From assembly GCF_014349155.1 (NCBI RefSeq), contig NZ_JACSIT010000066.1, positions 1 to 51,816 of the forward strand: 51,816 nucleotides of DNA, written 5' to 3'. Position 1 is the first letter of the stretch; every line of letters begins with the position of its first letter. Made by a program: the position numbers and the translations under genes. This document shows positions 716 through 30,504 of this stretch, one piece after another. Origin of the DNA: Neolewinella lacunae (GTDB lineage Bacteria > Bacteroidota > Bacteroidia > Chitinophagales > Saprospiraceae). Under the pieces are notes generated by a model that searched no databases, was not told where the DNA came from, and saw only the letters and a list, made by a program, of their open reading frames with translations.

Positions 716-3424
716 TTATTCCACGCTATTCAGGAATTTATAAAGATCGTCTTTGGTTCCCAAATCTAATTTTTTGCGTAGTCGGGAGCGGCTGACGTTT
801 ACGCTGGAGGCCAGAACGTTCATTAATTCGGCAATTTCGCGGGTGCTTAAACCTGATTTCAGGTAAACGCAAAGTCTTAAATCGTAATGGGTTAATTCCG
901 GGAAGCGCTCGCTGAGGCGATTGAGAAAATCCTGGTGTAGTTCCTCCATTTGCAGGCTGAAGCTATTGTCTTCGGTTTCTTCGTAGTTATCGAGGACGCG
1001 GCTGAGCTGGGTCAACTGAAATTTAATGGCCGGAGTCTGTTGGGTGAGGCTATCGAGTTTTTCCTTCAGAATTTGCAATACCCGGCCTTTTTCGTCACTT
1101 TCTTTAGCTTTCCTGGCCAGTTCGATGGTTTTGCCGCGCAACTGTTTTTTGATTTCGGAGAGGGCTTCTTCGAGCTGGGCGTATTTCTTTAGCAAGTTGT
1201 TTTTCTCTTCGGCGGCGGCCTGGAGCCGGGCGTTTACTTTATCCCGGACCTGGAGCTGCCGGCTTTGCTCCCGCAGTTTCCTGCTTTGCCACAGATGGTT
1301 GAGCCCGAGAAGCAGGAAGAAAACCACCGCGTAGAGCAGGTAAGCCCAGTACGAGGTATGCCACGGTCCTCCTACGGAAAATGAGAAGGTTGCCTCGGAA
1401 AGTTGGCCTTCCGGCCCGTTTGCCCGCACGCGCAGGGTGTATGCTCCTGCTGCCAGATTGACGAATTCGGCCTCGGTGGTTTCCGCCCAGTCACTCCACT
1501 GGTCCGAAATCGGATCAAGGGTATACTGGTAGCTTACCCGGTCTTGTTGGGGGACGCTAAAGTTAGCCCGGAGGTGATTGAGGTAGTGCGGAATTTCGTC
1601 TCCCTCGGCCAGTATTTGCGTAGTGTCGTTATTGAATGCTACAACACGACGAATGGAAAGTGGCGGGATGACGGCGGGTTCCGCCCGGAACTTCCGGTTG
1701 ATTAAAGCGAAGCCATTATACACCGGAAAAAAACCGTAAACCGAATCCAGTGGAGTGGGGTAGAGGGTTCCCGCCAAGGGGTTTTTAATATGGACGGTCT
1801 GGGCTGGCGCGGGTCCTTTGCTGAAGTCCATTTCCGCTTGCTGGAAGGTATAAACGGCCCCGGTGGTAATGGCCTGTATGGCTCCGTCCGTCTTTTGCAG
1901 GTGAATTGTTTCGTTATTGAATTGGGCGGCGGGAAAAATTTTCTGTGCCTCGACTCCCAGGTCCTGGTCCAGGCTGGCGCGGAGGAGGCCGTAATTGGGT
2001 AAATTGATCCAAAGGGTCTCCGCATCCTCCAGCAAGAGGGCACTGCAGGCTCCCTGGATGGGGGCTATTTTGCGGACATATTGCCATGCACCGTTTATTT
2101 TTTCGAATAGGGCGATTCCGTTGTAAGTGCCGGCCAGCAACTGCCCTTCCGCTATTTTCAGGATACCGAGCGTTCCCTCCTGGCTGCCCAACCACTCGAG
2201 GGTTTCCCCGTTGAGTTGAAAAAGGCCCCGGTCGTGGCCCCCCAGTACTTTGCCGTCGATAATCCTGAGGTCCCATACCTGCCCTGATGACCCCGCAAGC
2301 AGCTTGAATGCAGGAAGGGCAGCGCGGTTATTGAGCATTTCCCAGTCGGCGTAATATAGCCCCTGGTTGGTGCCCAGGTAAAAAATGCCCCCGTGAAGAA
2401 GGCCCGTGTGGCCAGTCCCCACCTTGCCTGGGACGTCCAGGAAATACGCCACTCCGCTCCAGAGTTGGACGGAAGAAATGCCAAAGTCCATGCTCAGCCA
2501 GAGTTTGCCCTGGGGACTGTAGTGGGCGGCCAGGATGGTATTGTTGAGCAGGCCCTTTTGGCGATTGATGTGCTGGGTGATGTTTCCGGCCAGGTCGCTG
2601 ATGTAGATGCCATTGAGCACGGTGCCAAAAGCGTAGTGGGTGCCGTCTACGGGGGTGAAGGAAAAGACCTGGTCTTGTTGCAGGTAAGGATTGATGGGGG
2701 CATCCACGGCAGTCAATTGCCCGGTGGCAAAACGGAACAGGCCTTGGTTGCGGGTGACGATCAGTAGTCCGTTCCCCGTTTCCTGGACACCCACGATGCG
2801 GGGCGTTTGGCCAGACGATGGCGGAAATCGGACTACGGGCTTCAGGCTCAGTCCGTCGAAAGCAAATAAGCCGTCCAATTCGTCGAAGAGATAAATCAGT
2901 TCTCCGCTGGCACAACTGCCCGTAAACCGGTGGGGGGCGGCAATTTTGGTGAGTTGCGCTTCGGCGTAGACGTAGATATTGTCAAAGGAAACGAAAACGG
3001 GGTAATCTTTGATTTTGTAGGTAGCCCAGAACTCCTCGTTTAAGCCATCGTTGCTGTCGCGGAAAGGATAGAGGGAGGTGAAGGTGAAGCTGCCCTGCGG
3101 GGTGCGCTGCCAGCGACCGAAGTCTTTGTCGGAACCCGAGTAAAGCACCGAGTCTGACTCGATCAGCACCGAGCGGGTAAATCCCCTGCTGCCCGAAAAG
3201 CGCTGCCACTGCTGCCCGTCGAATTCCAGCAGTCCTTTGTCGGTAGCAAAATAGACCAATCCGTTAGGAGCCGAGGCGATGTCCCAGGCTTTTCCTGCCC
3301 GGTCGTAAGTTTCGGGTGGGTAGTGTTGGAGCAGGGGAACGCCCTTGGTAGGAAATTTCTGGCCGCAGCATAAGGCGGCCGCCGCCAGGCAAATCCCCAG
3401 AGTCCAGGTCCTTAGTCTTCCCAT
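716..3424 (-). CDS. SusR-like membrane sensor/transcription regulator (Reg_prop, Y_Y_Y, LuxR-type HTH)
   Basis: This 902-residue protein has the architecture of Bacteroidota transmembrane regulators of glycan loci such as SusR. It has a signal/anchor at the N-terminus (WTLGICLAAAALCCGQ). A long periplasmic beta-propeller region follows, with two-component-regulator-propeller-like blades (NGLVYFATDKGLLEFDGQQW near residue 55). Next come a Y_Y_Y-type beta-sandwich (around 600-685), a single membrane helix (about 690-712), a coiled coil (about 720-800) and a C-terminal LuxR-like helix-turn-helix (HYDLRLCVYLKSGLSTREIAELM). There is no histidine kinase or receiver domain, so it probably binds a released oligosaccharide outside and DNA inside. 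It lies 42 bp after the stop of the GH17 gene on the same strand and is the likely local regulator. ATG at 3424 directly precedes the hydrophobic segment. Confidence 0.85.
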   Translation of the reverse strand: MGRLRTWTLGICLAAAALCCGQKFPTKGVPLLQHYPPETYDRAGKAWDIASAPNGLVYFATDKGLLEFDGQQWQRFSGSRGFTRSVLIESDSVLYSGSDKDFGRWQRTPQGSFTFTSLYPFRDSNDGLNEEFWATYKIKDYPVFVSFDNIYVYAEAQLTKIAAPHRFTGSCASGELIYLFDELDGLFAFDGLSLKPVVRFPPSSGQTPRIVGVQETGNGLLIVTRNQGLFRFATGQLTAVDAPINPYLQQDQVFSFTPVDGTHYAFGTVLNGIYISDLAGNITQHINRQKGLLNNTILAAHYSPQGKLWLSMDFGISSVQLWSGVAYFLDVPGKVGTGHTGLLHGGIFYLGTNQGLYYADWEMLNNRAALPAFKLLAGSSGQVWDLRIIDGKVLGGHDRGLFQLNGETLEWLGSQEGTLGILKIAEGQLLAGTYNGIALFEKINGAWQYVRKIAPIQGACSALLLEDAETLWINLPNYGLLRASLDQDLGVEAQKIFPAAQFNNETIHLQKTDGAIQAITTGAVYTFQQAEMDFSKGPAPAQTVHIKNPLAGTLYPTPLDSVYGFFPVYNGFALINRKFRAEPAVIPPLSIRRVVAFNNDTTQILAEGDEIPHYLNHLRANFSVPQQDRVSYQYTLDPISDQWSDWAETTEAEFVNLAAGAYTLRVRANGPEGQLSEATFSFSVGGPWHTSYWAYLLYAVVFFLLLGLNHLWQSRKLREQSRQLQVRDKVNARLQAAAEEKNNLLKKYAQLEEALSEIKKQLRGKTIELARKAKESDEKGRVLQILKEKLDSLTQQTPAIKFQLTQLSRVLDNYEETEDNSFSLQMEELHQDFLNRLSERFPELTHYDLRLCVYLKSGLSTREIAELMNVLASSVNVSRSRLRKKLDLGTKDDLYKFLNSVE

Positions 3425-3466: not shown

Positions 3467-4357
3467 CTAGACATACTTGAGTTCTTCGTTTTTGTCCCAG
3501 ATGCCCCAGTAGGCTCCAACGTCACCTTCGGCGCCCACCTTCCACGACTCGTCGAAGGAAGAAAAATAGAAGAGATCAATTTGTTCTTCGGCCGACCACC
3601 GCTGGGCATTGATGAAGTATTTCATGGCATTGAGCTCGGAGGGGTGAGCCCCGTCCAATCCCTTTCCCTGGCTGGGCCAGCCGGTTTCGGTTACGATTAC
3701 CTTTTTGCCTTTGGCGGCCTTGAGCGCTTGCTGGTACATGTCTTTCATATAGACCAGGGAGTATTCCAGGGCGCAGCCTTCCCAGTAGGGATAGCAGTTG
3801 GCCAGGATCAGGTCGCAGGCATCGGCCACCTGGGGATGGTCCCGGAATTCGTAGTAAGCATCGACGTAGCCTACGGGCACCCCGGCTGGTACGGCTGCCC
3901 GGACCCGCTGGATGGCGGCCAGGAGCGTTGCCTCATCCAAGTCGTTGCGGTAGAGGACTTCGTTGCCTACGGCCGCGATATCCACCAAGCCTTCCTGGGC
4001 CAGTTCGATGAGGCCGGCGATTTCGGCTTCGTTTTTTTCGGCGTCTTTCCCGAGCCAAGCCCCGACCAGCGTTTTGAGGCCCATTTCCCGGGCTATTTTA
4101 GGGATCAGTTCATTGCCTTCGGTGCAGGAGAACGAGCGAATCCAGTTGGAGAAAGGCTGGATGATTTTTAGCCTTCGGCGGACTTGCTCTTCGGTGAGCT
4201 GGTCGCCCGGCTGCTGTCCTTCCTCATAGGGGCTCATGCAAATACCGTGCATCCCCCTTTCCAACGTGCCCAAAAACTGGTTAGCTATTTCGGTTCGGCT
4301 CTGGTCGGTAAAGTCCAGTCCGGAAAGCGCTAATCTGTTGCCTGATTTATACGACAT
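3467..4357 (-). CDS. GH17 family exo-beta-1,3-glucanase, cytoplasmic
   Basis: The 296-residue protein is a complete GH17 TIM barrel. The acid/base is Glu133 in AAVGNEVLYR, and the nucleophile is Glu224 in VIVTETGWPSQ, the GH17 signature. FYFSSFDESWK near the C-terminus is also typical. No signal peptide is visible (starts MSYKSGNRLALSG), so it should act in the cytoplasm on imported laminari-oligosaccharides. It is clearly paralogous to the GH17 domain fused to the transporter encoded just upstream; shared strings include IRSFSC, GNELIPK, VGAW and NAMKYFIN. Only 13 bp separate it from that gene, so they are cotranscribed. Exact specificity (exo-glucosidase versus transglycosylase) cannot be read from sequence. 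Confidence 0.9.
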   Translation of the reverse strand: MSYKSGNRLALSGLDFTDQSRTEIANQFLGTLERGMHGICMSPYEEGQQPGDQLTEEQVRRRLKIIQPFSNWIRSFSCTEGNELIPKIAREMGLKTLVGAWLGKDAEKNEAEIAGLIELAQEGLVDIAAVGNEVLYRNDLDEATLLAAIQRVRAAVPAGVPVGYVDAYYEFRDHPQVADACDLILANCYPYWEGCALEYSLVYMKDMYQQALKAAKGKKVIVTETGWPSQGKGLDGAHPSELNAMKYFINAQRWSAEEQIDLFYFSSFDESWKVGAEGDVGAYWGIWDKNEELKYV

Positions 4358-4370: not shown

Positions 4371-6764
4371 TTAGATTAATTTACCTGCTGTGCCATACTT
4401 CAAAACACCGTCCTTATCCCACAGCCCCCAGCGGGAGCCCACGGCTCCTTCCTGCTGTACTTTCCAGATTTCGTCAAAGGAGGAGAAGTAAAAGACTTTA
4501 ACGTCTTTTTCCCGCGCCCATTCCTGCACGTTGATGAAGTATTTCATGGCATTTTCGGCGGAGGGTTTAGCGGCTGCTACTTCCTGGCCTTCACTGGGCC
4601 AGCCCGTCTCGGTAACCATTACCTCCTTATTACCAGCAATGGCCTTTACCAAGTCGTACATGCGCTCGAAGTAGGCCAAAGAGTGGGCAATGTCGGCACC
4701 TTCCCAGAATGGATAGCAGTTGATCAATACCACGTCGCAGTATTCGATCAGTTCGGGGTGACTCAGGAACTGGTAGTAGGTATCGACGTAGCCCAGTTGG
4801 ACGCCGGCGGGGAGCAAAGCCCGGACGCGCTGCAGGTAGGCGATGATTTCGCCTACGGATAATTCGTTCCGCAACAATACTTCGTTGCCTACCGTGGCAA
4901 TATGCACTACTCCGTCCTGGGCAAGCCCGACCAACGCATTGATCTCTTTTTCATTGCGGACTTTGTCTCTGCTGATCCAGGCCCCGACCACCGTACGCAA
5001 GCCTTTTTCCCGGGCGAGTTTCGGAATCAGTTCGTTGCCGCCCGTACAGGAGAAGGAGCGAATGGCGTGGGTAAAGGGCTGTACCGTTTGCAGGCGGTCC
5101 AAAATCTGGACCTCGGAGAGCACGTCACTGGGATCCTGACGCTCCAGGTATGGGCTGAAGCACAAGCCGGGAAGCTTATTTTCGAGGGTTTCCGCAAACA
5201 ATTGCTGCAACTCAGCTTTGGAGGCGCGGCTGAAATCCCGCCCGATTGTGGTGGAGTGAATGCTTTTCCCCGCCAAAGATTCCAGTTTTCCTTTCTGGTA
5301 CGCTGAAGAAGTGCCCAGGCCCAGTTTTTTCAGGTTAATGGCCTGCCGCACTTCGTTGGCGCGCATCTCCGTCAGGTCGTACTTCCGCATGACGAACAGG
5401 GCAATCAACGTACCGGCAATGGGCACGCCCGAAAAGAAAGCTCTTAAACCCGTGATGGATTCTTCGGTATACGACTCCGGGCTGAAGCCCACAAAACTCA
5501 GGATGACGCCACTCAATCCACCGGCGATGGCGAAACCGAATTTTACCATCCACCAGTAAATGGCCCCGAAAATTCCTTCCCGGCGCTTCCCGGTGTTTAA
5601 TTCGTCGAGATCAATGACGTCGGCAGTCATGGACATCATCAAGGTAAACAAACTGCCGATGCCAAAGGAAAAGAACGGAAGGGCAAATAAGAACAGGTAG
5701 GGTTTACCCGGTATGAAAAGAAACCAAAGGAGGATGTAGCCGAAGACAGAAATGCCCTGGGCTACCATAAAGGCTTTTTTCTTTCCCATTTTTCTGGACA
5801 TCCACGCCACCGTCGGGATAACTGCGAAGGTGGTCACCAGCGCCCCAACGCTGCCAAACAGCGTTGGCCACAAGCCCGCCGCCGCCGAGTCTCCGCTGAA
5901 GAGGTAGTAAACGACGATGAAAAAGGAGAAGGCTGCTACGGTATTGAAGGCGTTGAAAATGAAGAAGGTAGCGATACACATCCGCCGGAAGGGAACAATC
6001 TTGAAGGCCTCTACGAAACCATAGAAAATCTCATTCAGGCTGCCGCCGATGTTTTTAAAATTTAGGGGCGCCAGACTTTCGTCGTTTTTGGTGGATTCGC
6101 TCTTGATAAAAATGGCGGGCATCATGGCCAGAATCATGCAGGAAATACCGACCCAAATCGATAGATTTCTGGTGGCTGCATCTGCATTTTCAAACCAGGC
6201 GGGATCGTACATAATTACCCAGAACCAGGGCGCGATAACCCAGGCCCACTGCCCGATCCATTGGGCGGTGGCCATGATGCTCGTCCGCTCGTGAAAGTCG
6301 TCGCTCATCTCGTAGCCCATGGCCACGTAGGGCACGCTAAAGATGGTCAGGCCGAGGTAGAAGATGAAGGACCAGACGAGGAAGTAGGTGAAATTGTATT
6401 CGAGGCTGTTTTCCCGGTACACCTGCCACATGATGATGAAGGAAATACCCATGATGATGGCCCCCAGAAAAACGTACTGGCGGCGGCGGCCCCAAACGGA
6501 GCGGGTATTATCGGAGATGAATCCCATGATGGGGTCCGAAAAAGCGTCGAAGATCCGGGGCAGGAAGTAGATCAGGCCCCACATCCAGCCGGGGAAGCCC
6601 AGGTCTTGCACCAACACCACCATGAAAATCCCCAGCGCGGCAGGGAACATCTGGTTGGCCAGCATTCCCAGGCCAAAGGCTACTTTTTGGCCGAAAGGGA
6701 CTTTGCTACTTGCTTTTCCGTCTATGGCAGGAATATCAATTACTTCGTTATTGACTTTAGACAT
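4371..6764 (-). CDS. MFS (GPH-type) sugar transporter fused to a GH17 glucanase domain
   Basis: The 797-residue protein joins two complete domains in one open frame. Residues about 25-465 are a 12-helix glycoside-pentoside-hexuronide type symporter, with DAFSDPIMGFISD followed by WGRRRQY at about 73-97. After a linker of about 45 residues, 510-790 form a GH17 barrel with Glu628 (TVGNEVLLR) and Glu719 (MVTETGWPSEG) as the expected catalytic pair. With an even helix number both ends should lie in the cytoplasm, so the enzyme would meet sugars as they enter. The frame could begin upstream, but ATG 6764 (MSKVNNEVIDIP) fits the family start. No frameshift or stop lies near the junction. The gene sits between two other GH17-type genes. 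Substrate is inferred to be beta-1,3-gluco-oligosaccharides. Confidence 0.9.
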   Translation of the reverse strand: MSKVNNEVIDIPAIDGKASSKVPFGQKVAFGLGMLANQMFPAALGIFMVVLVQDLGFPGWMWGLIYFLPRIFDAFSDPIMGFISDNTRSVWGRRRQYVFLGAIIMGISFIIMWQVYRENSLEYNFTYFLVWSFIFYLGLTIFSVPYVAMGYEMSDDFHERTSIMATAQWIGQWAWVIAPWFWVIMYDPAWFENADAATRNLSIWVGISCMILAMMPAIFIKSESTKNDESLAPLNFKNIGGSLNEIFYGFVEAFKIVPFRRMCIATFFIFNAFNTVAAFSFFIVVYYLFSGDSAAAGLWPTLFGSVGALVTTFAVIPTVAWMSRKMGKKKAFMVAQGISVFGYILLWFLFIPGKPYLFLFALPFFSFGIGSLFTLMMSMTADVIDLDELNTGKRREGIFGAIYWWMVKFGFAIAGGLSGVILSFVGFSPESYTEESITGLRAFFSGVPIAGTLIALFVMRKYDLTEMRANEVRQAINLKKLGLGTSSAYQKGKLESLAGKSIHSTTIGRDFSRASKAELQQLFAETLENKLPGLCFSPYLERQDPSDVLSEVQILDRLQTVQPFTHAIRSFSCTGGNELIPKLAREKGLRTVVGAWISRDKVRNEKEINALVGLAQDGVVHIATVGNEVLLRNELSVGEIIAYLQRVRALLPAGVQLGYVDTYYQFLSHPELIEYCDVVLINCYPFWEGADIAHSLAYFERMYDLVKAIAGNKEVMVTETGWPSEGQEVAAAKPSAENAMKYFINVQEWAREKDVKVFYFSSFDEIWKVQQEGAVGSRWGLWDKDGVLKYGTAGKLI

Positions 6765-6831: not shown

Positions 6832-8145
6832 TTAGCGTTCCTGGAGGGTATCAACCGGTGGAAGCGCTACGCTGGCCAGCAGGCTGGTGGTATCCCCGCC
6901 GAATGTTTTAGTGATGGGGTTGCCGTCGCGGGTCAGGCCCGCAAAAACGCCGGCGTCAACCAGTGGCCAGAGGGCGTGTTTGGCCTGCCCGCGGAGGTTG
7001 ATCAATCCGAAGTGGTTCTCGGAACCCCCGGGGTTTTGGGCGTCTTTCCAAGGCTCATCAAAGGCTTCAAAGTAGAAGCAGGCGATGTTTTTTTCGTCTG
7101 TCCAACTGCGGATATGGTGGTAGAAGAGGCTTTGCTTGTATTCGTCGGTGGCCCGGGAGCCCTCCGCGCCGTACAGGCTGTTGTCGTTGCTGGCCCAGCC
7201 GGTTTCGCCAATGTGGATGGGTTTATCCACTCCCAGACTTTGCATATAGTGGGCAACGGAGTCATATTGGCTGATGGCGTAGGCTTTGGCGCGCAACATG
7301 GCCGCTTCGATCATGGCTTTTTTGTCTTTTCCCGGCCCCTGCGACCGCGCGCCCCAGAACTGCGGATTGTAGTGCGTATCGTGCATGGGGTAGGTATGCA
7401 TGGAAATGTAATCCACGGCGTGAATCAGCTTATTGAGGTCCTCTACGTGGTATTCACTGCCGCCACCGCCCCAGGACGCGAAATTATCGGAACTGGTGAT
7501 CCAGAGGTCTTTGGGTAATTCCCCCTTTTGCTTGAGCGCCTGCAAATGATTTACCCATTTCAGGATCACGCCCGGCTGCACATAATAGCTGGTCGCCCAT
7601 TTTACCATGGCTTCGTTGCCCACGGCAATAACCTTTACAATGTCGGGATGTTGCTGCGCGAGGGCGACGGCCCGGTCAATTTCCGCAGCATTTCTTTCGC
7701 TCTCCGCGTTATGGTCTGGTGGGAGGTCCGTCCAGGCATTTTTACAGTCAATCCAGGCACCCAGCATGACGTACATTTCAAAGCCGGGGTCTTCCTTTTT
7801 CAGGGCTTCGATGGCGAGCAAAACATTCGGTGCGTGGGGCAGGTGAACGTTGTAGGTACGAATAATCCGGACGCCCATTGCCGCCAGGATTTTCATATCT
7901 TCCTTTAATTGCTGCAGGCTGGGTTGGGTATCCCGCGTCACACTGCGGTAACCTCCGTACGATATGGCGTGATAACCCGGTTTTCCCAGTATTTCGGCAG
8001 CGGTGAGGTGGGGTGCTTCCATGGGTGTTTGATTTTCCGAAGAACAGGTGTGTAGCGAACAGAATGCACCGAATATCAGGGCGGCTAAGCGTAGAATACC
8101 CATTTTTCGGCAGTTTCCGCTGCGGGTGGCTCCCAGGTACTTCAT
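6832..8145 (-). CDS. GH17-like beta-glucanase lipoprotein
   Basis: The 437-residue protein starts at ATG 8145, which overlaps the TGA of the preceding gene by four bases (ATGA), a sign of translational coupling. A hydrophobic segment ends in a lipobox (FCSLHTC, Cys34), so it is probably membrane-anchored in the periplasm or on the surface. The catalytic barrel has a GNE acid/base (Glu178 in AVGNEAMVKW) and a nucleophile (Glu314 in HIGETGWASN), and ends with FYFEAFDEPWK, as in GH17 and related clan GH-A enzymes. It is more divergent than the two other GH17 domains of this locus and about 140 residues longer. A later ATG at 8103 is an alternative start. It probably trims beta-1,3-glucan fragments before uptake. 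Confidence 0.85.
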   Translation of the reverse strand: MKYLGATRSGNCRKMGILRLAALIFGAFCSLHTCSSENQTPMEAPHLTAAEILGKPGYHAISYGGYRSVTRDTQPSLQQLKEDMKILAAMGVRIIRTYNVHLPHAPNVLLAIEALKKEDPGFEMYVMLGAWIDCKNAWTDLPPDHNAESERNAAEIDRAVALAQQHPDIVKVIAVGNEAMVKWATSYYVQPGVILKWVNHLQALKQKGELPKDLWITSSDNFASWGGGGSEYHVEDLNKLIHAVDYISMHTYPMHDTHYNPQFWGARSQGPGKDKKAMIEAAMLRAKAYAISQYDSVAHYMQSLGVDKPIHIGETGWASNDNSLYGAEGSRATDEYKQSLFYHHIRSWTDEKNIACFYFEAFDEPWKDAQNPGGSENHFGLINLRGQAKHALWPLVDAGVFAGLTRDGNPITKTFGGDTTSLLASVALPPVDTLQER

Positions 8146-11100
8146 TCGTTTTGAATTGGCAGTGCAACCAAAATCTCGCGTACCGCTCCGGTGCGTGCAA
8201 AGATTTTTTTGCTGGTTTCGGGATCTAATTTCAGGTTGGGATTTTTTTGCAGGGCGCCATCGGCGTATATGATTTCTACCCCGGTATTTTCCGCCCGCCG
8301 GTAGGTAATTGGTACCTGGCAGTAAGTGAAACACAGGGCCCCGGCGGGCACATGCTTGCTTTGGGCTTGGCCACTTAGGTCAATATAATCAAATACGCTG
8401 CCGGTAGAAAGAAACTCCTGTGCCCGGAGCAAATCGGGCTTGAAATGCAATTCTCCCCCGGCTACTACCAGGCCCAATTCGCCAAAGCGACTGATGATGT
8501 CTTCTTTGACTTGCCCGGTCATGCCCGGCTGTTGGGCGCCCTTTCCCTTCGGAGTGTGGGAATAGGGATCGGTGGGGAAAGCACCGTAATGCGCCGGGGA
8601 TTTATGTACCCCAATCCCTTCGTTAATTGCGTAATAATGGGCTGCCAGCCGCCCGGTAATTTCCTGCGGAGCCCCCGCCGCAATGGCCTGCAGGCAACAT
8701 TCCTGCACCGCCAGTTGCAATTTCGATACCATATGCCAGTAAATAGACCCCAGGCCTTCGTAACCAAAAAAGGTACCCGAGCGGCCGGTAAATTCCCGGT
8801 GATTAAACACTTCCTCGAAAATGCCCAGGACCTGCTTTTTATTTTCTGGCGTCAGGCTGTCATAACGGCCCGGATCGATGGCGTTCAGGGCTTTACTGAC
8901 GTCGCCGCTGTTTTTAAAATTGCCGTTAAAGTGGAATGCTCCCGTGACGTCTTCGGTAATAATGCGCGTATCTTTTTGCTGCAACATTTCCCGCAGCAGG
9001 GGGGATGCTTTCAGCGCGGCCGCAGGTACCGTGTTTTTCCTTAAAAAGCCGGGGAGGTCTTTATCGGGGTAGAGGATATAGCTGTTTTGGTCTTTCCGGT
9101 AAAGCGAGCTGTTTTTCAGCGCGTCCAGCACTTCCAGGCAGTCGGCCGGGGCCAGTACCCCAGCACTTAAAACCGCCACCTGCCCCTCCAGCATTTCGCT
9201 CAAATGACCGACGGAAAGCCCTGCCGCATCAATACCGACCAGGTTGTAGGCGTGGTACAAGCCGTCGGCACGTTTATTCGCCCGGATGCTGTGGTCGATG
9301 AAGGCCAGGCTGGTGTGCAGCAGTTGGCGAATGTCCTTGCTCAGGATGAGTTGGGTGTTGCCGCTGAATCCTTGCGCGTAAATCCGCTGGCGAAAAGCGT
9401 GGGCAGCCGTTCCCAGGGCGTCCAGCATTTGCTTGCGGCTCCGGTCGTCCAGGCCCGCGCTGAGCAAGGAGGTATGCGCCTGGAAGCCCGCAAAAATGCC
9501 GTCGAAAAGCCCTTTTAACTCCTCGGAAATGGCCATTTCCTGTTCCGCCCCGTGGTCCAGCACCTGATCAAAAAAGACAATGAAACGGCGCAGGTAATAG
9601 AGCGTCACCATGGAGACGCCGTTGCCCACCAGGGCATTGTTGGCGTCGTTCCATTCGGGGCGCTGGGTATTCATCCAAATGCCGCCTTCGGGGATGAAAT
9701 TGGCGAGTTTTGCCAGCAGGGTAGCCAGTAATTTTTCCAGAAATCCTACGCGGTGGATACTCCCCGTTCGGTCGCGCAGCAGGGCACCGTCGGCCCCCAT
9801 TTGCTCTTTTCTGGCGTGAATCTCCCGGTCCAGCGCCGCGTCAAAGTCAATGGTGTCTTTGGGGTTGTCCAGGATGGCTTCGTAGGATTTAATGCGGTAG
9901 GGTACGTTGGCGTAAACGAAGAAGGATTTGCCAAAGAGATCAGCCACACTGCCCGGCTGGTGTTTTTCGAGCAATTCCAGCAGCTTCAGTAGATAGATGA
10001 TCTGGTGGTCGCCCCAGTAGCCGATGTAAGACCAGGGATCATCGGGCTCGATGGTCTCCCAGTCGAAGCCGTCTTTGGTAACCCGGTAGGGGTTGTAGCC
10101 ATCGAAGGTACTGGCGTTGACGAATTTAAAAATCATCCCCCGCAGGAAATCGGGGTAACTGTGGGCGAGCGCTTCCCAGTTCTGGAAAATATCGCGCCAG
10201 TTGCCCTCGTAATCCAGGATTTTGCTCCCATCGGACTCGTTATGGGTGTTAATCGAGAAGCGGTTCCACGGCCGGCTGGGATCCCCGTGCCGGCGGCTGA
10301 ATTTCAGGGGCAGATATTCCAGACAGAGGCGCTGAAAATCGGGGTCGGGAGTGGCTTCGGCCAGCGCCGTGAGCTCGTGCAGGGAGCATTTTTCGGGAAG
10401 CTGCTGCAAGACTTCTCTTTGGTTTTTGCTGACCTGGTGATTGGCCTTGGCCAGGTAATTCAGGAGGTCCTGCCGTTCAATGTTGTAATTGTCGTCAAAA
10501 ATCCCTCCGCGCATAATGTTGAACAGCACGTTGGCGAAGTGGCGCGTATCCCGCAGCGGATCGGCGGTACACTGCAGGGCATCGGCCGCCGCGCAGAGGG
10601 CCAGAAGGTTTTGGGTGCCCAGGTCGGTTTCCCTGGCAACCTCCGCCGCCAATGGCTCGGGTTCGGTTAGCAATTGGATCAATCGGGCCAGCGCCGCGTG
10701 GTCCTGGTTGACGTTCGCGCCAATGGTCCACGTCCGCGTAGCCTGAGCGGGCAGGACCAGGGTAGCGTGCACGAAATAGGCACCTTTTTCTCCTTTTACG
10801 TCGGTTTCCGGAGTAATTCCCTCGCCCCGCCGGAAATTGCCCAGTTGGCGGGCGGAGAGCAGGTGGCCGCGGGCATCCAGCCCCAGAGACCAGACTACGT
10901 TGGCTTTCAGCGCTTCGCTGGGCTCGGCTTTGTCCACGATGATGGCGCTGAGTGCGTAAATACCAAGGCCGGTTGCCGCGTGGAGTTCACTTCTTTTGTA
11001 GGCATCCACCAAATTGCTGGTGCGGTTTTGCAAATCACTGGGGACGCCGGCGGGAAGGATGTTTTGCAAGCCGTCCAATAATTCCACGGAAATTTCTTCT

Positions 11101-11558
11101 GCCGAATCATTTTTTAAGGTGGCCGTACGAATGAAGCCGAACTGGTTGGAAGAACTCCACTGGTATTGGAAGGACAGCTGAAAATCGTGGTTGATTTCCT
11201 CGAAAATTATTTTATTGCCATAAATGCTCTTGTAAAGGTTACGGCTGGTGCGAAAGCGGCCTTCCCCGCGGATGGAAAAGGGCTCCCAGGTGCCCCGGTC
11301 AGCACCATTTACGCGGATCCGGAAAATGGATTTACTGCCCGTAATTTCTGCCGATTCGGTAATTTTATCGTCGGTGTAATAGGGGAATAAGGCGTATTCT
11401 GCATTTTTCCTGCCGGCAGAAATACCCCCGTTGCTGGCCACAAACATCCAGTGGTTGCCGTCACTGACGACGCTCATGAAAAATGGACGAAACGTATCCA
11501 CATTTGAGATCTTATAAAAATGCTCATTGTTCCACTCAATTCGCTGGAGATCTTCCAT
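8142..11558 (-). CDS. Probable GH149 beta-1,3-glucan phosphorylase
   Basis: This 1138-residue protein has no signal peptide and begins MEDLQRIEWNNEHFYKISN. It has the size and layout of inverting disaccharide/oligosaccharide phosphorylases: an N-terminal beta-sandwich (DGNHWMFVASNGGISAGRKN, ALFPYYTDDKI) and a central (alpha/alpha)6 barrel (RHGDPSRPWNRFSIN, LDYEGNWRDIFQNWEA, FDGYNPYRVTKDGFDWE, YIGYWGDHQ). I assign it to GH149, whose characterised members phosphorolyse beta-1,3-glucan to glucose-1-phosphate and are of similar length. This rests on remembered family features plus the GH16/GH17 neighbourhood, not on a database search. GH94 and GH161 are the alternatives. Its cytoplasmic location fits a phosphorylase, because phosphorolysis conserves energy inside the cell. 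It is coupled to the downstream GH17-like lipoprotein by a 4-bp overlap. Confidence 0.7.
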   Translation of the reverse strand: MEDLQRIEWNNEHFYKISNVDTFRPFFMSVVSDGNHWMFVASNGGISAGRKNAEYALFPYYTDDKITESAEITGSKSIFRIRVNGADRGTWEPFSIRGEGRFRTSRNLYKSIYGNKIIFEEINHDFQLSFQYQWSSSNQFGFIRTATLKNDSAEEISVELLDGLQNILPAGVPSDLQNRTSNLVDAYKRSELHAATGLGIYALSAIIVDKAEPSEALKANVVWSLGLDARGHLLSARQLGNFRRGEGITPETDVKGEKGAYFVHATLVLPAQATRTWTIGANVNQDHAALARLIQLLTEPEPLAAEVARETDLGTQNLLALCAAADALQCTADPLRDTRHFANVLFNIMRGGIFDDNYNIERQDLLNYLAKANHQVSKNQREVLQQLPEKCSLHELTALAEATPDPDFQRLCLEYLPLKFSRRHGDPSRPWNRFSINTHNESDGSKILDYEGNWRDIFQNWEALAHSYPDFLRGMIFKFVNASTFDGYNPYRVTKDGFDWETIEPDDPWSYIGYWGDHQIIYLLKLLELLEKHQPGSVADLFGKSFFVYANVPYRIKSYEAILDNPKDTIDFDAALDREIHARKEQMGADGALLRDRTGSIHRVGFLEKLLATLLAKLANFIPEGGIWMNTQRPEWNDANNALVGNGVSMVTLYYLRRFIVFFDQVLDHGAEQEMAISEELKGLFDGIFAGFQAHTSLLSAGLDDRSRKQMLDALGTAAHAFRQRIYAQGFSGNTQLILSKDIRQLLHTSLAFIDHSIRANKRADGLYHAYNLVGIDAAGLSVGHLSEMLEGQVAVLSAGVLAPADCLEVLDALKNSSLYRKDQNSYILYPDKDLPGFLRKNTVPAAALKASPLLREMLQQKDTRIITEDVTGAFHFNGNFKNSGDVSKALNAIDPGRYDSLTPENKKQVLGIFEEVFNHREFTGRSGTFFGYEGLGSIYWHMVSKLQLAVQECCLQAIAAGAPQEITGRLAAHYYAINEGIGVHKSPAHYGAFPTDPYSHTPKGKGAQQPGMTGQVKEDIISRFGELGLVVAGGELHFKPDLLRAQEFLSTGSVFDYIDLSGQAQSKHVPAGALCFTYCQVPITYRRAENTGVEIIYADGALQKNPNLKLDPETSKKIFARTGAVREILVALPIQNE

Positions 11559-11873: not shown

Positions 11874-12716
11874 TTAATTGGTGCGCTCCGATACGCGCAC
11901 GTAGTCGATGACCATGGGCTGCGGGAAGGGCGTCTGGCTGGTAGGGAAACCGACGTAATTTCCGCCCACGGCAACGTTGAGGATCATAAAGAAGGGCTGG
12001 TTGTATACCCACTCTCCCGGAACGTCTTTTTTCTCGATGCGCTGGTAAAGGAAATCGTCTACGAAGTAGTCGATATAATCCTGGCCCCACTCAATGGCAA
12101 ATACGTGGTATTCGCTGTCGAAGCGGCCATTTTCCAGGGCAAAATCGGAAGTGATGGCATTGCCTCCCGAGTAGCCAGGGCCGTGGAGGCTGCCGGCAAT
12201 TTTATCGGGGATTTGCCCGCGCAATTCCATGACGTCAATCTCGCCGCACTGGGGCCAGGTGACTTCATCGATGTTGGCCCCCAGCAACCAGAACGCCGGC
12301 CACAGGCCCGGTCCGTAGGGCGTTTTCATCCGCGCTTCGAAGCGCCCGTAGGCCTGCTCGAAAATGCCCTGGGTTTTGATGCGCGCCGAGGTAAAAGAAT
12401 TGCCGTTTCGGCGGGCGGTAATCTGCAGGTTGCCGTTACCGTCGAGGGACACGTTTTCGGGATTGCTCGTGTAGGACTGCAATTCCGCGTTGCCCCAGCC
12501 ATTGTCGCCCGTGCCGAGGTCGTAGGTCCATTTTCCGGGGTCGGGGAGTTGGCCAGCGGCACCGTCGAATTCATCGCTCCAGACTACGCGCCAGGTACGC
12601 TCTTCCAGGTTTTGGGTTTGGTCCGCTTCGCAGCTGCTCAGGCCAAGGGCCAGGCTGGTCATCACTACCAGAAGGAGGAGGTAAAACCCGCGGATCGTTT
12701 TATTGGATAGTTTCAT
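11874..12716 (-). CDS. GH16 endo-beta-1,3-glucanase (laminarinase) lipoprotein
   Basis: The 280-residue protein starts at ATG 12716 (MKLSNKTIRGF) and has a lipoprotein signal (LALGLSSC, Cys29). The rest is a single GH16 jelly-roll. TWRVVWSDEFDG opens the domain, KTPYGPGLWPAFWLLG forms the substrate cleft, and the GH16 signature CGEIDVMELRG holds Glu159 (nucleophile), Asp161 and Glu164 (acid/base). The extra residue in ExDxxE (EIDVME) is the laminarinase/lichenase-type bulge. It should cut internal beta-1,3 bonds of laminarin at the cell surface or in the periplasm. It is encoded 78 bp after the binding-module lipoprotein on the same strand. Confidence 0.93.
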   Translation of the reverse strand: MKLSNKTIRGFYLLLLVVMTSLALGLSSCEADQTQNLEERTWRVVWSDEFDGAAGQLPDPGKWTYDLGTGDNGWGNAELQSYTSNPENVSLDGNGNLQITARRNGNSFTSARIKTQGIFEQAYGRFEARMKTPYGPGLWPAFWLLGANIDEVTWPQCGEIDVMELRGQIPDKIAGSLHGPGYSGGNAITSDFALENGRFDSEYHVFAIEWGQDYIDYFVDDFLYQRIEKKDVPGEWVYNQPFFMILNVAVGGNYVGFPTSQTPFPQPMVIDYVRVSERTN

Positions 12717-12794
12717 GCTGAAATGTATTTTGGTGGATGGAGCAGGGGAGTTGACCCGCATTTAGTTTGCGGTAGTCAACTCCCACTGCGGGGT

Positions 12795-15755
12795 TTAATT
12801 TCGGAAATACACGTTATCTACGAAAATGGTGGTGGCTCCGGTTGGTTGGCCCACCAGAATATACTGGGCGATGTTGGCTCGCCGGGTCAGTCCCGTAAAA
12901 TCGCTCAGAGGAATGTCATAGCTGATCCATTGCCGCTGGGCGGGGGTGGTGAAATTGACCTGGTGCTCCACGTCGTCGCCGCCACCGAAGGCACCGTCGG
13001 GCCCAAAGTCAACGAGCTTGATGCCGAAGGTGGTGAAGTCTGCCGACCACACGTCGATCCGGAAGTGGGTCATGGCCGTAGCGTCCACCTGATTGGCCAC
13101 CGTTTCGATGCCCACAAAATCGAGCATGCTGTATTTCTTAGTGGCGTTGCCCGCTACATTGATGTCTTCCAGTACGGCCGCCGACCAATCGGTGCGCCAG
13201 GTATCTACGGGTACATCGGTATAGGCATCGCTAAAGAGCGAAATGACGTTGGCTGCCGCCGTTGTGGGTGTTGGAGCGGCTGCGACCGGGGAGGTCGGGT
13301 TACCACCACCCCCGCTGCCGTAGAAGTAGAGGTTATCAACAAAAACCGTTGCTCCACCGGATGGCTGGGCTACGAGGATGTATTGGGCAAGATTGGCCCG
13401 CGTGGTCAGGCCGGTAAAGTCGCTCAGGGGAATGTCGTAGCTTACCCACTGGGCCTGGGCAGGCATGGGGAAATCGATCTGGTGCTCTACGTCGTCGCCG
13501 CCGCCAAAACCGCCGTCGGCTCCGAAGTCAACGAGTTTGATGGAGAAGCTGGTGAAATCCGCCGACCAGGCATCGAGGTGGAGGTGGGTCATATCCGTTG
13601 CATCCACCTGGTTGGCTACTGTTTCGATGCCGACAAAATCGAGCATGCTGTATTTCTTAGCGGCGTTGCCAGCTACGGTAACGTCTTCAAAGGTTGCGGC
13701 AGACCAATCGGTGCGCCAGGTGTCTACGGGCACGTCGGTGTAGGCATCGCTGAAGAGGGAGATGACATTGGCTGCCGGGCGCGTGGGCGCAGGCGCTGCG
13801 GTGGCGGGCTCCGTTGGGTTGCCGCCGCCGCCCGTCCGGTAGAAGTAAATGTTGTCGACAAAAACGGTCGTGGCACCCGTCGGTTGACCTACGAGGATGT
13901 ACTGCGCGATGTTGCTGCGGGTAGTCAGGCCGGTGAAGTCGCTCAAGGGGATATCGTAGCTGATCCACTGGCCCTGGGCGGGCGTGGCGAAGTCGATCTG
14001 GTGCTCTACATCGTCGCCGCCGCCAAAACCGCCGTCGGGGCCGAAATCGACGAGCTTGATGGAAAAGCTGGTGAAATCACCGGACCATACATCCAGGTGC
14101 AGGTGGCTCATGTCAGCCGCGTCGACCTGGTTGGCTACCGTTTCGATGCCGACAAAATCGAGCATGCTGTACTTTTTCGTGGCGTTGCCCGCGATGTTTA
14201 CGTCTTCAAAAGTTGCGGCAGACCAATCGGTGCGCCAGGTATCTACCGGTACATCGTTGTAGGCGTCGCTGAACAGAGAAATGACGTTGGCCGCCGGGCG
14301 CGTGGGGGTGGGAGCGGCCATGGTAGGCTCGCTTCCGCCGCCGGATCCGCCGCCGTCTCCGTTGTAGAGGTAGAGGTTGTCCATGAAGACGTTCGGCAGA
14401 TCACCCGAAAGTACGATCTGGGCGAGGTTGGCCCGCGAAGTCAGGCCAGGAAAGGCGCTGAGTGGCAGGTCAATACTTACCCACTGCTGGGTCTGCAGCA
14501 CGGGACTGGTGATGGTTACTTCGTGCGAAACGTCGTCGTTGCCGCCGAAGGCACCGTCGGGCCCCAGGTCTACCAGCAACACCTTGAAGGTTGCGGGCAG
14601 CGCCGTCGGGTCGGGCGTCCAGATGTCCAGGTGGATGCGGTTGACGGCCCGCGCGTCGATGGTGGGGGCGGTAAACTGGATGCCGACGAAATTCAGCTGG
14701 CTGTAGCGGATGATGTCGTCACCCGGAACAACCTGAACGTTGGCAGACTGGGTCGTGGAAAACTGCCAGAAGCCGTTGTAGAAATCGACCGGAACGTTGG
14801 TATAGGCATTGCTGAAGATGGAGATTACGTCGGCCGAGGGCACGGTTGGGGTAGGGGCCGGCGTGGAGGGCAGGATGGGGTCTCCGGTGGAGGTGATGGC
14901 CAGGGAGCCTACCGCTGGCTCCCCACCCAGGGTAGCGGTGATGGTGGCCGTACCGGCGTCCAGCACCGTCACCGCCCCCGTGGCATCTACGCTGGCTACG
15001 GAGGGGTTGGAAGAAGTGTAGGTGAAATAAGAGGGGGCGGCATTGACCCGTTGGTTGATCCCCGTTGGAAGGTTGAACACGGCAAAACCGTCGGCCCGGA
15101 AGGTGGCACCCGTTTCTACGGTCTGCGTCAGGTTTTCGCCGTTGAAGATGCCGGAGTTAACGGCCACCACGGTGCCCAGTTTTTCGAATTTCATCTCGTC
15201 GATCCAGAACGTATAGCCACGGCCGTTTTCTGGTCCTTCGGAATAAAAGAACATGCCGCGCTCCTGGGTGAGTTTGGAAGGGTCGGGGATGGGGATATAG
15301 TATTTCTGCCAGTTGGTATTGATGGCGAGGCCTTCGACGGAGGCTTGAAAATTGTTGCCGCCCAAGTCGTTGCCGATGCCGACGATGTCGATATTGGCCG
15401 CCTGGGTAGCCCGGGCCCAGAAAGTGAGTACGTTGTAGCCGGATAAATCCCGGCCGCCGGTCAGGAAGAAAGCACCACCGGCGTAAGCCCCCGCTGGGTC
15501 TTCAAAGTCGGGTACGGCAAATTTCATGGAAGTGGTGCCGGCGTATTTGACTTCGGTGTCGACGTCAAAAGCGCCCACCGCAGAGCCTCCGAAGGCGGCG
15601 TAGTTCAGGTCGCCGGGAAAGCCATCGATGAAGACTTCGGCGTTGGTGGGGAAGGTGGCCAGTTCGAGTTCCTCCAGTTCCCGTTCGCAACCCATGCCAA
15701 AGAAAAGGGCGGCAAAAAGTAGTGCGGCGCGCAGTTGGTTAAATCGCTTTTTCAT
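12795..15755 (-). CDS. Multimodular glycan-binding surface lipoprotein
   Basis: The 986-residue lipoprotein (lipobox FFGMGC, Cys23) starts at ATG 15755; a TTG two codons earlier is less likely. An N-terminal beta-sandwich resembling CBM11/CIA30-type modules (about 40-185) is followed by a Big_2 Ig-like domain (about 190-285, YTSSNPSVASVDATGAV). Four tandem modules of about 160 residues follow, at roughly 302-463, 478-638, 652-812 and 822-986. Each module carries FSDAY-x-DVPVD, LDFVGIE, (F/L)xGGDDVEH and VDNxYF motifs. Modules 2-4 are nearly identical and module 1 is diverged. No catalytic motif is visible. Such modules also occur on Bacteroidota laminarinases, so I infer a surface binding protein for beta-1,3-glucan that does the capturing job usually given to SusD/E/F. 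Confidence 0.8.
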   Translation of the reverse strand: MKKRFNQLRAALLFAALFFGMGCERELEELELATFPTNAEVFIDGFPGDLNYAAFGGSAVGAFDVDTEVKYAGTTSMKFAVPDFEDPAGAYAGGAFFLTGGRDLSGYNVLTFWARATQAANIDIVGIGNDLGGNNFQASVEGLAINTNWQKYYIPIPDPSKLTQERGMFFYSEGPENGRGYTFWIDEMKFEKLGTVVAVNSGIFNGENLTQTVETGATFRADGFAVFNLPTGINQRVNAAPSYFTYTSSNPSVASVDATGAVTVLDAGTATITATLGGEPAVGSLAITSTGDPILPSTPAPTPTVPSADVISIFSNAYTNVPVDFYNGFWQFSTTQSANVQVVPGDDIIRYSQLNFVGIQFTAPTIDARAVNRIHLDIWTPDPTALPATFKVLLVDLGPDGAFGGNDDVSHEVTITSPVLQTQQWVSIDLPLSAFPGLTSRANLAQIVLSGDLPNVFMDNLYLYNGDGGGSGGGSEPTMAAPTPTRPAANVISLFSDAYNDVPVDTWRTDWSAATFEDVNIAGNATKKYSMLDFVGIETVANQVDAADMSHLHLDVWSGDFTSFSIKLVDFGPDGGFGGGDDVEHQIDFATPAQGQWISYDIPLSDFTGLTTRSNIAQYILVGQPTGATTVFVDNIYFYRTGGGGNPTEPATAAPAPTRPAANVISLFSDAYTDVPVDTWRTDWSAATFEDVTVAGNAAKKYSMLDFVGIETVANQVDATDMTHLHLDAWSADFTSFSIKLVDFGADGGFGGGDDVEHQIDFPMPAQAQWVSYDIPLSDFTGLTTRANLAQYILVAQPSGGATVFVDNLYFYGSGGGGNPTSPVAAAPTPTTAAANVISLFSDAYTDVPVDTWRTDWSAAVLEDINVAGNATKKYSMLDFVGIETVANQVDATAMTHFRIDVWSADFTTFGIKLVDFGPDGAFGGGDDVEHQVNFTTPAQRQWISYDIPLSDFTGLTRRANIAQYILVGQPTGATTIFVDNVYFRN

Positions 15756-15776
15756 TTTCAATTAATTTTTCGCGGG

Positions 15777-18700
15777 TTACTTGAAGATGTTGATGTGGAG
15801 GTAAGTGCGGATTTCCCACTCGTTACCATTGTCGAAGCCAATCGCCGTTGGGGCGCAGGCCAGCGTTCCGTCGGGCATCGGTGCACGCGTTGGGCAGTAG
15901 CGGGGGGAGAATTGGTCGAGCGTACGGTAGATGCCCATCACGCCGATCTTCGTTTCCGGGAGACTGAACCAGCTGGGCCTGCCCAGGGTGGTGGAGAGGT
16001 CGAGTTGCAGCTGGGTCGGGAAGGTGAGGTTAAAGTCGCGGTGGTAGTCAAATGGCCCCCAGTCGTTGAATTTGATGGAGGAGATGAGTTTCATGTGCTT
16101 GTAAATCAGGCGCACGTCGGTACCGAAGCGTTGGATTTTGCGGGGGTCGGAGCCGTTGGCCTGGGCGGTGCCGGTATAGACGTTGGCGACGAGGCCAAGG
16201 TCGGTATTGACCTTCGAGACAATGCGGGCGTGGGCCTCCCAGAGGTCGGCAGCCGGGGCAGCGCCGGGGAAGGCAAAGAAGGTTCGGCCGTCTGGCAGAA
16301 TACCGATGGCGGCATCCTGGGTGGTGGGCAGGTGGCGGAAAACGAAGCCGGCGGCAACGGCCAGTTTGGCGTCTTCGGCCCGGTCGTTGTCCCACTGGTG
16401 CATGTAAGTGGCCGGCGTGGGGTCGAAGGTGAAGAGGATTTCCCCCGCCACCGTCTCCCGGTTGGCGCGAACGGAGAAGGGATCGGCCAGGATGTTGCGC
16501 GGGCGGCCCGGGGCAGTTACGTCGCCCGGGATCGGCCCCTCAATCGGGCGCTGCCAGAGGAAGTTGGGCGCAATCTGCAGGTTGCCCACCAGGTAGGTGA
16601 AGCCACTCAGGAAGTTGTACTGGTTGCCACTGCCGCTGTCTTTCAGGCGCCAGCCGGTGAAGGTCAGCGTCGGGTCGGCGCTGCCGCCAGCCACCAAGCC
16701 CTGGGCTGCGGCCTGGGCGTACCAGTTGATGCGGCCTTTGGAGTAGGTCAGTTTTACTTTACCGCCCCAGTTGTCGGAAGACTTGATTTCGTCCTGGTAG
16801 ACCGTGTAGTCGCCACTTTCCCCTTCCACCAGTTGGAAGGAACGGCCAATGAGGGGAGACCCACCCCAGATACCACCCAGCTGGATGCCCAGGTTGCCCA
16901 TTTCTTTTTCAATCTGCAGGGTGGCCCGGCGGGTGCGGGGCATGGGGATGGCGAAGGAGCTTTCCGTCTGTCCCCGCTCTTCGAGGTCTTCGTGGAAAAT
17001 GCCGGTTACTTCCATGCCCATCAGCTCACGGCGGTACTTGGCCAGTATGGCGGGGTTGGCTCCCCACCAGAGTTCAGGGCCCATGGCCAGGGTGAGTCCC
17101 TTCAGCTCTTTTTTGCCTTCGATCTCTACGCCCAGGGGAGCCTGGCCGTTGTAGATGTCGATGTTCGGCCCGTAGTTGGCTTCGGGGTAGAGCCCGAAAA
17201 AGTCGCCTTCGTAGCCCCAGTGGTAGTGGCCCGTACGGTAGAAGGCGGTGAGGTCAAATTTATCGTGGGTCCAGTTGATGTCGGCGCGGTAGAGGGCGAT
17301 GCGGTTAACATCCGCCTGCGTCACCTGCCCGTTGGTGGAGTTGAAGGTAACGGGGCGGCCGCGGTTTTCGTAGAAGACTTCGTTGATGGGGTTTTGCGCC
17401 ACGTTGCCCAGGATGTTGAATTCCACGTTGGCCCGCAGGCTGGGGTTGGGGTTGGCCGAGACGCCCACGAAGATGGACTGCATGTGGTCAAAGCCGAGCT
17501 GGTTGGGGAAGACGTTGTCCGTCGGGTCGTCTTCCTGCGGCGTAGCGATGAGGCTGCCGCCGGTGTTGAAGGAGGTCAGTTCAGCGCTCAGGCGGCTCAG
17601 TTGGATTTTTCCCGCCCGCTCGCTTTCCATGGCCGCCTGGTCGCCCCGGGCCCGGGTGACGGCATCCATCAGCTGGATGTTGTCGAAGTAATTGTCCAGA
17701 TCGGCGTTGCTGCTGCCGTTGGCGTAGGGATCGTAGCGGTGGGCTTCTTTCAGGGCGTAGTAGGCAGCCCGGGGGTAGAGGCTGTAGAGGCCGCGTTCGT
17801 TGGTCGGGCCTTTGGCCGTTACCCCAAACCACTCTTCGTTCATGTTGTTTTCGCCCGGGACGTAGTCGCGGTCGTAGCCCCCGTTAGACCAGGAGGCGTT
17901 GTTGTCGTGGACATCCAGGTTGTCCGTCTGCCCAAACTTCCACCAACCATCACTGAACTGGAAGGTGAAGCCACCCAGCGAGTTATCGGCCCCGCCCATG
18001 CCAGCGGCGTTGGCGTAAATTTCTTTCCAGTTGCCTACCATGTAGTAGGCCTGGGCAAGTTGGTCTTCGCGGTTGGATTGGGCGTTGAAGGCGTCGGCTC
18101 CGAATTCGGTGAACAGGATGGGCTTACCGTATTCCTGCCGGACCCGGGTAAATGCGTCGCCGAAGGAGACGCCACGGTACATGTTGGTGCCGAAAATGTC
18201 GATGGCCGGGCACTCACGGGCGATGATGTCCAGGAACAGGAGATCGCCGTTGCACATCGCTACGGGGTGGGATTGGTCAATGCCCTTCATCGCCACCGTC
18301 GCTTCGTTGAACAGCTTGTACATGGCTTCGGCCCGGATGGTGGATTTGCGGTCCTGGATCGGGATGTCTTCCGTTTCCGCCCCGCCCCAGAAAAGGCCGT
18401 AGTTGTTTTCGTTGCCCAGCAGGTACATCAGCAGGCCAGGGGTATTTTGGTACTCCTCGGTCATTTTGCGCACCTCATCGAGCAGCAGTGCCCGCACCCG
18501 GGGGTCGGAGTACTCGGTGTTGGCCATCCAGCCACCGTCTATCGTAAGTCCGTACCGGCCAAAGGAGTGGTTGAGCATCGTGTAGATGCCGTATTTCTCG
18601 TAGATGTAAGTGATCCAGCGGGCGGGAACGCCAGTGTACTGCCGGATGGCGTTGACGCCCATGTTGCGCAGCAGAGACATCTCTTCGTCCAGGGCCGCCC

Positions 18701-18911: not shown

Positions 18912-18956
18912 ACGATCGACTATTACTGTGAGTAAATTCTGAAAAGAGTCAGAATG

Positions 18957-18964
18957 CAAAATTA
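18957..18964 (-). promoter_or_regulatory. Bacteroidota -7 element for the glucan locus
   Basis: The minus strand reads TAATTTTG, a perfect TAnnTTTG box, 45 bases upstream of the ATG at 18911. No clear -33 TTG was found at the usual distance. It is the only good match ahead of the first gene of the locus. Confidence 0.5.
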
Positions 18965-28984: not shown

Positions 28985-29203
28985 ACTAATTCCCGGCAGT
29001 TTTGCTGAAGAAAGTTCCCACTCTCCCCAGCCTGAACCGGCCCCACAAAAATAGTGGGCCAACCAGTGATTTCTACGTCCGATGGCACGCATACCTCAGA
29101 TGATTGCTTGGGGAAAACCCGGAAGACAGTCCCGATACATTTCCCCGGGAACAGGACTTAACCTAAATTTAATTAGATTCATTCAAGATAATGGGCAAGT
29201 CGC

Positions 29204-29235
29204 TTGCAGGGGTCGATTGGCTGTGCCTACCTTTG
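29204..29235 (+). promoter_or_regulatory. Bacteroidota promoter for the DUF4856-imelysin operon
   Basis: A -33 TTG at 29204-29206 and a perfect -7 TACCTTTG at 29228-29235 are 21 bases apart. The box ends 38 bases before the ATG at 29274. No Fur-like palindrome is obvious around it. Confidence 0.6.
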
Positions 29236-29273
29236 CGCTATTAAGAATTGGTACAGATAAAAATAACTCCTCA

Positions 29274-30476: not shown

Positions 30477-30504
30477 GACAACACTTTGAACAATGGATTT
30501 TAAA

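Follow-up and report, generated by a model that had tools for sequence, protein, structure and literature searches.

Why would a sugar importer carry a glucan-active enzyme on its own polypeptide, with a second enzyme of the same family encoded directly beside it? The question arises at positions 4371-6764 (minus strand) of a 51,816-nucleotide stretch of Neolewinella lacunae DNA, the whole of which we call the window. Laminarin ranks among the major carbon stores of algae, and the transporter-enzyme fusions that take part in its uptake have been published but are poorly understood. A sequence-only reading of the locus had drawn attention to the fusion. This kind of protein is not new; it was described in 2018 as FbGH17B from Formosa (Unfried et al., PMC6246565), in a paper whose accessible text already proposes that import and hydrolysis are coupled. 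According to the accessible text of a 2023 study, at least one GH17-MFS fusion was present in most of the variant-1 laminarin PULs expressed in a North Sea bloom, and such fusions also occur in the gammaproteobacterial SAR92, Luminiphilus and SAR86 (PMC10108472). What our analysis adds to the published fusion is the interleaving of fused and unfused importers, an old and non-local origin, a transferase-type free partner and one independent re-joining.

The fusion protein and its topology

The gene comprises 797 codons, starts with ATG and runs as a single open frame through a permease and a GH17 domain with no stop between them, as the sequence-only reading had described. A Pfam profile search places MFS_2 (PF13347; E = 2.4e-64) at residues 30-466 (nt 5367-6677, minus strand) and Glyco_hydro_17 (PF00332; E = 3.7e-11) in the C-terminal domain of residues 511-797 (nt 4374-5234, minus strand), both above their gathering cut-offs. 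The linker between them, residues 467-510 (nt 5235-5366, minus strand), agrees with the earlier estimate of about 45 residues and is presumably cytoplasmic. The proposed catalytic glutamates E628 (nt 4881-4883) and E719 (nt 4608-4610), their codons checked, occupy the two catalytic positions; both are invariant across an alignment of 56 fused proteins, and in larger sets of 102 fused and 102 free GH17 domains the two columns hold Glu without exception. In a protein database search (8000 proteins scored, 6587 past threshold), the two domains occur together in all 120 homologues among the matches listed, and a 787-aa protein from another record is 95% identical over 98% of the query. The fusion is therefore no assembly accident; it is real, well conserved and of an already published kind.

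The description of the permease as GPH-type stands at the level of the broader MFS_2 family (PF13347) and falls at that of TIGR00792, the NCBIfam model for GPH cation symporters, against which it scores 177.8 bits, below the curated cut-off of 231.35. Residues 26-462, nearly the whole domain, align with MelB (PDB 4m64). We take D55, D59 and K377 of MelB to be cation-site residues and D19 and D124 to be sugar-site acids. The first three align with D73, D77 and K408, positions conserved in all 95 type-1 transporters whether or not they are fused; the fusion has a MelB-type cation site. D19 is replaced by Q38 (Gln in 95 of 95 type-1 transporters) and D124 by S143 (Ser in 94 of 95). The transporter fits a cation-coupled importer, and a sugar other than that of MelB would be expected because both of these acidic positions are replaced.

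Averaged over the 56 fused proteins, a simple scripted hydropathy scan, used in place of a dedicated topology predictor, finds 12 TM-like segments and no thirteenth in the linker, where the best score is -0.78. The K+R sum is 24.3 for alternate loops counted from the N-terminus, to which the first 45 tail residues add 8.2, and 4.6 for the other loops. A higher cysteine content is expected in cytoplasmic than in exported proteins; the mean is 4.4 in the 102 fused domains and 5.4 in the 102 free ones, whereas 66 exported GH17s average 2.2. The even segment count and the positive-inside charge pattern bear out the earlier proposal that both termini are cytoplasmic, and charge pattern and cysteine content together suggest that the fused GH17 domain lies in the cytoplasm. 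It might instead be periplasmic and feed the transporter with its products, and a statement in the accessible text of Unfried et al. (PMC6246565) can be counted for such a placement. Set against the even number of segments, the linker devoid of a further one, the charge pattern and the high cysteine content, we regard it as very improbable.

The operon and the probable roles of its enzymes

The operon runs, on the minus strand, from a GH2-like protein through a Big_2/CBM11-like protein, GH16, GH149, an exported GH17 and the fusion to a free GH17, with a LuxR/Y_Y_Y-like regulator following. The GH2-like TIM barrel protein (15777-18959; PF02836) has relatives in 32 loci and the Big_2/CBM11-like protein (12795-15761; PF02368 above its cut-off, CBM_11 below its own) in 50, the window included in each case. 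Then come a GH16 glucanase (11874-12761; PF00722) and a GH149 β-1,3-glucan phosphorylase (8142-11558; NF058639, 1738.9 bits against a cut-off of 1150). The exported GH17 (423 aa, 6832-8103) occupies an FbGH17A-like slot; its ATG at 8103 lies inside the frame 6832-8334, its N-terminus is signal-like by eye, and it scores 25.0 bits against PF00332, below the cut-off of 28.2. The operon's last gene, the free GH17 (296 aa, 3467-4357), starts 13 bp past the stop codon of the fusion, as had been noted from the sequence; it has no signal peptide by eye and is presumably cytoplasmic. The adjoining regulator (716-3424, minus strand; Y_Y_Y above cut-off, GerE below) has relatives in 8 loci, window included. 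GH30 is represented neither by a family member in the operon nor by a PF02055 match in the whole genome, and SusC has no match on the window's contig, with 19 SusC genes past cut-off elsewhere in the genome. The enzyme families point to laminarin as the substrate, in line with the context first suggested for the locus.

Elsewhere in the window, genes for a DUF4856 protein, a TonB-dependent receptor and an imelysin (peptidase M75) lie near one another at 29082-35641 and look like a metal-uptake cluster apart from the laminarin operon. A Fic/DOC domain protein is encoded at 37652-38890 (minus strand), and two DUF3857/transglutaminase-like proteins stand in tandem at 44806-48695.

Calling the GH17 enzymes glucanases proved too simple. 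MlGH17B, a free GH17 of a laminarin PUL, is a glucanosyltransferase for which Tyr136, Trp191 and Glu192 are crucial, Tyr136 being replaced by Met in FbGH17B, according to the accessible text of PMC11005184. The window's free GH17 has all three residues (Y136, W192, E193) and is probably a glucanosyltransferase; the fused domain keeps the Trp and Glu and has Leu631 (nt 4872-4874) in place of the Tyr, three residues after the catalytic Glu (E+3). This column was chosen from PMC11005184 and is one of 11 discriminating columns in an open scan. We compared it in 102 fused and 102 free domains, leaving out L001-L004 from the window's own genome, GH17 domains of ≤230 aa, MFS domains of ≤380 aa and identical sequences. 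Tyr occupies E+3 in 80 of the 102 free enzymes (80 of 84 outside Pseudomonadota) and in 5 of the 102 fused domains, the latter having Leu in 69, Met in 17, Gln in 4, Phe in 4 and His in 3. Leu also occurs in 22 of the 102 free enzymes, namely all 18 from Pseudomonadota and 4 others. The marker is not absolute. An 8-member fused subclade on a long branch carries Tyr or Phe at E+3 (L116, L110, L109, L080, L048, L046, L043 and L006) and possibly has a changed activity; outside it, seven fused domains carry Gln or His.

We consider it likely that this is a laminarin operon in which a cation-coupled MFS_2 importer bears an exo-acting GH17 on its cytoplasmic C-terminus, where it trims incoming oligosaccharides. 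GH16 and the exported GH17 would cut laminarin outside the inner membrane, and the MFS_2 symporter would import the resulting laminari-oligosaccharides. Inside the cell, the tethered GH17 would trim them on arrival, the free GH17, probably a glucanosyltransferase, would rearrange the imported chains, and the GH149 phosphorylase would convert linear chains to glucose-1-phosphate. The activities in this model are carried over by analogy from FbGH17B, MlGH17B and characterized GH149 enzymes; in the accessible texts, FbGH17B releases glucose from laminari-oligosaccharides (PMC6246565), and GH149 enzymes phosphorolyze chains down to laminaribiose (PMC6484121). A hydrolase beside GH149 looks wasteful, unless it serves ends or branches beyond the reach of GH149, because GH149 alone can degrade linear oligosaccharides. 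The exceptions to the E+3 marker and the missing GH30, an enzyme common in such operons, also count against the model.

The fused domain could also be a glucanosyltransferase like the free one, remodeling imported chains instead of hydrolyzing them. It shares 54% identity with the window's free enzyme, in which the crucial MlGH17B residues are complete, and Trp687 and Glu688, two of the three crucial residues, are invariant in the 56 fused proteins. However, the position of MlGH17B Tyr136 is Leu here and something other than Tyr in 97 of 102 fused domains, and FbGH17B, with Met at E+3, is reported in the accessible texts to release glucose (PMC6246565, PMC11005184). We judge a transferase role for the fused domain unlikely and prefer the tethered exo-acting hydrolase.

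Ancestry and distribution of the fusion

The sequence-only reading had derived the fusion from duplication and joining of the adjacent paralogue. In a 123-row GH17 tree, from which near copies (76% within a type) and all domains under 270 aa other than those of the window were dropped, fused and free domains form two clades, with support of 99 on the separating branch and a single exception, L022. The window's fused domain groups with the fusions of L062 and L071 (its nearest rows, L062, L071 and L064, are all fused) and its free GH17 with the free enzyme of L071, and a sister relationship between the window's two GH17s is rejected (AU p = 1.9e-36), which disposes of a local duplication of the neighboring gene. 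Each copy clusters with counterparts of the same type in other genera; duplication and joining are therefore old, predating these genera. FbGH17B is absent from the trees, and its place in the fused clade is taken from its architecture.

The exception belongs to genome G042, whose fusion (547-3009 in L022, 9381-11843 in L153) combines the importer with a GH17 that falls in the free clade along its entire length. A genome-wide search of G042 found no other strong free-type GH17 match. We read this fusion as joined independently; a deletion between tandem copies might have produced it.

With the best 30 loci classified in each survey, the fusion occurs in at least 15 genomes of an even draw of 395 from the phylum and in at least 16 of 150 from the family, this genome included in both. 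A set of 80 named GTDB loci, all with the fusion because the query favored it, comprises 59 from Bacteroidota, 1 from Balneolota and 20 from Pseudomonadota, the last being 18 Burkholderiales and 2 titled beta proteobacterium. Outside Pseudomonadota there are 61 fused loci (60 of the 80 plus L153). Among the 53 of them with at least 7 kb upstream, a GH149 relative is present in 52, an exported GH17 relative in 53 and GH30, an accessory feature, in 41; a free GH17 lies directly downstream in 53 of the 57 with at least 1.2 kb downstream. Because the operon-family count under-counts high-GC loci (under its non-overlap rule, 14 of 20 Pseudomonadota transporters were kept), other tallies were used for Pseudomonadota. 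There, GH149 is found in 4 of 20 loci and the free gene in 18 of 20, 15 times upstream of the exported GH17 and 3 times on the other strand; in the two loci without it, the contig ends near the fusion. The fused and free genes appear to have been exchanged as a pair between Bacteroidota and Burkholderiales-like bacteria. In 15 Burkholderiales-like loci (L073, L075, L088-L091, L096, L097, L101, L103, L108, L111-L113 and L138), with Rubrivivax, Rhodoferax and Hydrogenophaga among their titles, the free GH17 comes first, followed by the exported GH17 and then the fusion, and our literature search found no mention of this group in the accessible texts.

Fused and unfused transporters do not separate. 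On a tree of 21 fused and 19 unfused rows they interleave with 11 changes, at least 9 of which are forced by starred branches, and a single clade of fused transporters is rejected (p-AU = 4.1e-45). This 40-row sample favors interleaving because its fused rows were picked partly as the nearest relatives of unfused ones; an 85-row transporter tree likewise needs 11 changes. Counts of changes cannot separate gain from loss, and we chose repeated loss on the ground that, L022 excepted, the fused GH17 domains fall into a single clade. The simplest reading would be that the GH17 domain has been lost repeatedly with the importer staying in place. Unfused importers occupy the same operon slot many times over, including in a genome of the same genus (G506; 81% identity). 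At L027 and L031, which belong to one genus, a fused-clade GH17 sits on a distant type of permease whose other members are unfused in a transporter tree built without near copies, from which it follows that the transporter part was exchanged at least once, if the trees are right. Read outside any tree, the low-scoring distant permeases of L168-L178 are unfused in 11 of 11 cases, with a free GH17 adjoining in 10; nine of the 11 have 520-524 aa, some 47 residues longer. A literature search, with most subscription journals outside its scope, found no title on the evolution or loss of the fusion. That importers with and without the domain are intermixed on the tree, for which repeated loss is the best reading, may be new.

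These comparisons bear on what the tether does. By bringing permease and enzyme together, the fusion would couple import to hydrolysis. Tethering is not needed for import, because unfused importers fill the same slot so often, and the tether might do no more than place the enzyme at the membrane and fix expression at 1:1, with the domain working on a common pool and no transfer from permease to enzyme. Fused (76) and unfused (19) transporters share the checked cation- and sugar-site residues and differ at >60% in each set in only three columns, all conservative, and the GH17 domain seems dispensable in evolution. Against so simple a function, the spacing from Y462 to Q521 is 59-63 residues in 56 of 56 fused proteins, and the linker, near constant in length, carries a conserved SSAY..GKL stretch at 486-494, more than a loose tether needs, although the argument is weak because the other 55 proteins are 66-77% identical to the window's. 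We give a tether of this purely positional kind a substantial chance, if somewhat less than an even one. Coupled trimming by the tethered hydrolase lends itself to a direct comparison, since some close relatives that share the operon and importer have the tethered enzyme and others lack it; together with the free-type joining of L022/L153, they are natural experiments that make the idea testable without constructing new fusions.

The free GH17 tends to accompany the fusion. Among 95 type-1 transporters outside Pseudomonadota (permeases of the distant type, scoring <560, and the contig-end loci L120, L047 and L013 left out), it is present with 72 of 76 fused and 7 of 19 unfused ones (Fisher p = 1.2e-7, kinship ignored). 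Free-gene status was read genome-wide in 18 genomes (all unfused rows except L025 and L052, plus L022) and otherwise by locus, that of L025 on 4.4 kb only. With kinship allowed for, eight independent pairs on starred branches gave means of 4.8 in agreement, 0.1 in disagreement and 3.1 without difference (median p = 0.0625, range 0.0156-0.688), so that after this correction the link is only suggestive. Genome-wide searches of 17 unfused genomes left 11 with no strong match to the free-type GH17, the weak matches there being 29-36% identical. Unfused loci with at least 7 kb upstream have GH149 in 14 of 14 cases and GH30 in 5 of 14. Lineages without both GH17s could manage because GH149 acts down to laminaribiose. 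We also considered a Tyr in the fused domain as an explanation for an absent free partner and found it unsupported, as only L022 of the four such proteins has Tyr.

One tentative view, to which we give roughly one chance in three, is that the tethered exo-hydrolase and the free glucanosyltransferase form a split module of paired enzymes that travel together and tend to be lost together. The module would be accessory to phosphorolysis by GH149, its tethering optional and dropped repeatedly with the same importer kept. The maltose system pairs a glucanotransferase with a phosphorylase (MalQ/MalP). If the view is right, the paired GH17 module would be the β-1,3-glucan counterpart of MalQ/MalP.

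Comparison with known systems

The melibiose symporter MelB shares the positions of D55, D59 and K377 with the importer and, unlike the fusion, has D19 and D124 and no enzyme domain. Among solved structures, the best match to the fused domain (E = 1.2e-28) is RmBgt17A (PDB 4wtp/4wtr, titled 'beta-1,3-glucanosyltransferase'; the name is from the literature), which differs in being fungal and unfused and in carrying the Tyr (GSEVLYR). The operon's phosphorylase belongs to the family of the GH149 enzyme Pro_7066, and the accessible texts on that family report that some proteobacterial GH149 genes cluster with genes for an MFS protein (pfam13347) and a cytoplasmic GH17, naming no fusion (PMC5827456/PMC6484121). 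MlGH17B of Muricauda lutaonensis resembles the window's free GH17 in having no signal peptide, in the aglycone-site Tyr/Trp/Glu and in its downstream place in a laminarin PUL beside an MFS gene (PMC11005184, PMC13188888; accessible texts). Its MFS transporter is a separate gene, and its transferase activity was measured, whereas that of the window's enzyme is predicted.

The closest counterpart is FbGH17B (FORMB_24740, Formosa sp. Hel1_33_131), for which the accessible sources likewise give an N-terminal MFS and a C-terminal GH17, a laminarin PUL and an adjoining exported-type GH17; GH149 is named among the laminarin PUL enzymes of that genome (PMC6246565). The differences are Met in FbGH17B and Leu in the window's fusion at E+3, and a GH30 that, by the locus tags, stands between the other GH17 and the fusion in Formosa and has no match in the window's genome. 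Apart from this missing GH30 neighbor, the fusion of N. lacunae is of the FbGH17B type in its two-domain order, its fused-clade GH17 and its laminarin-type operon with GH149 and an exported GH17.
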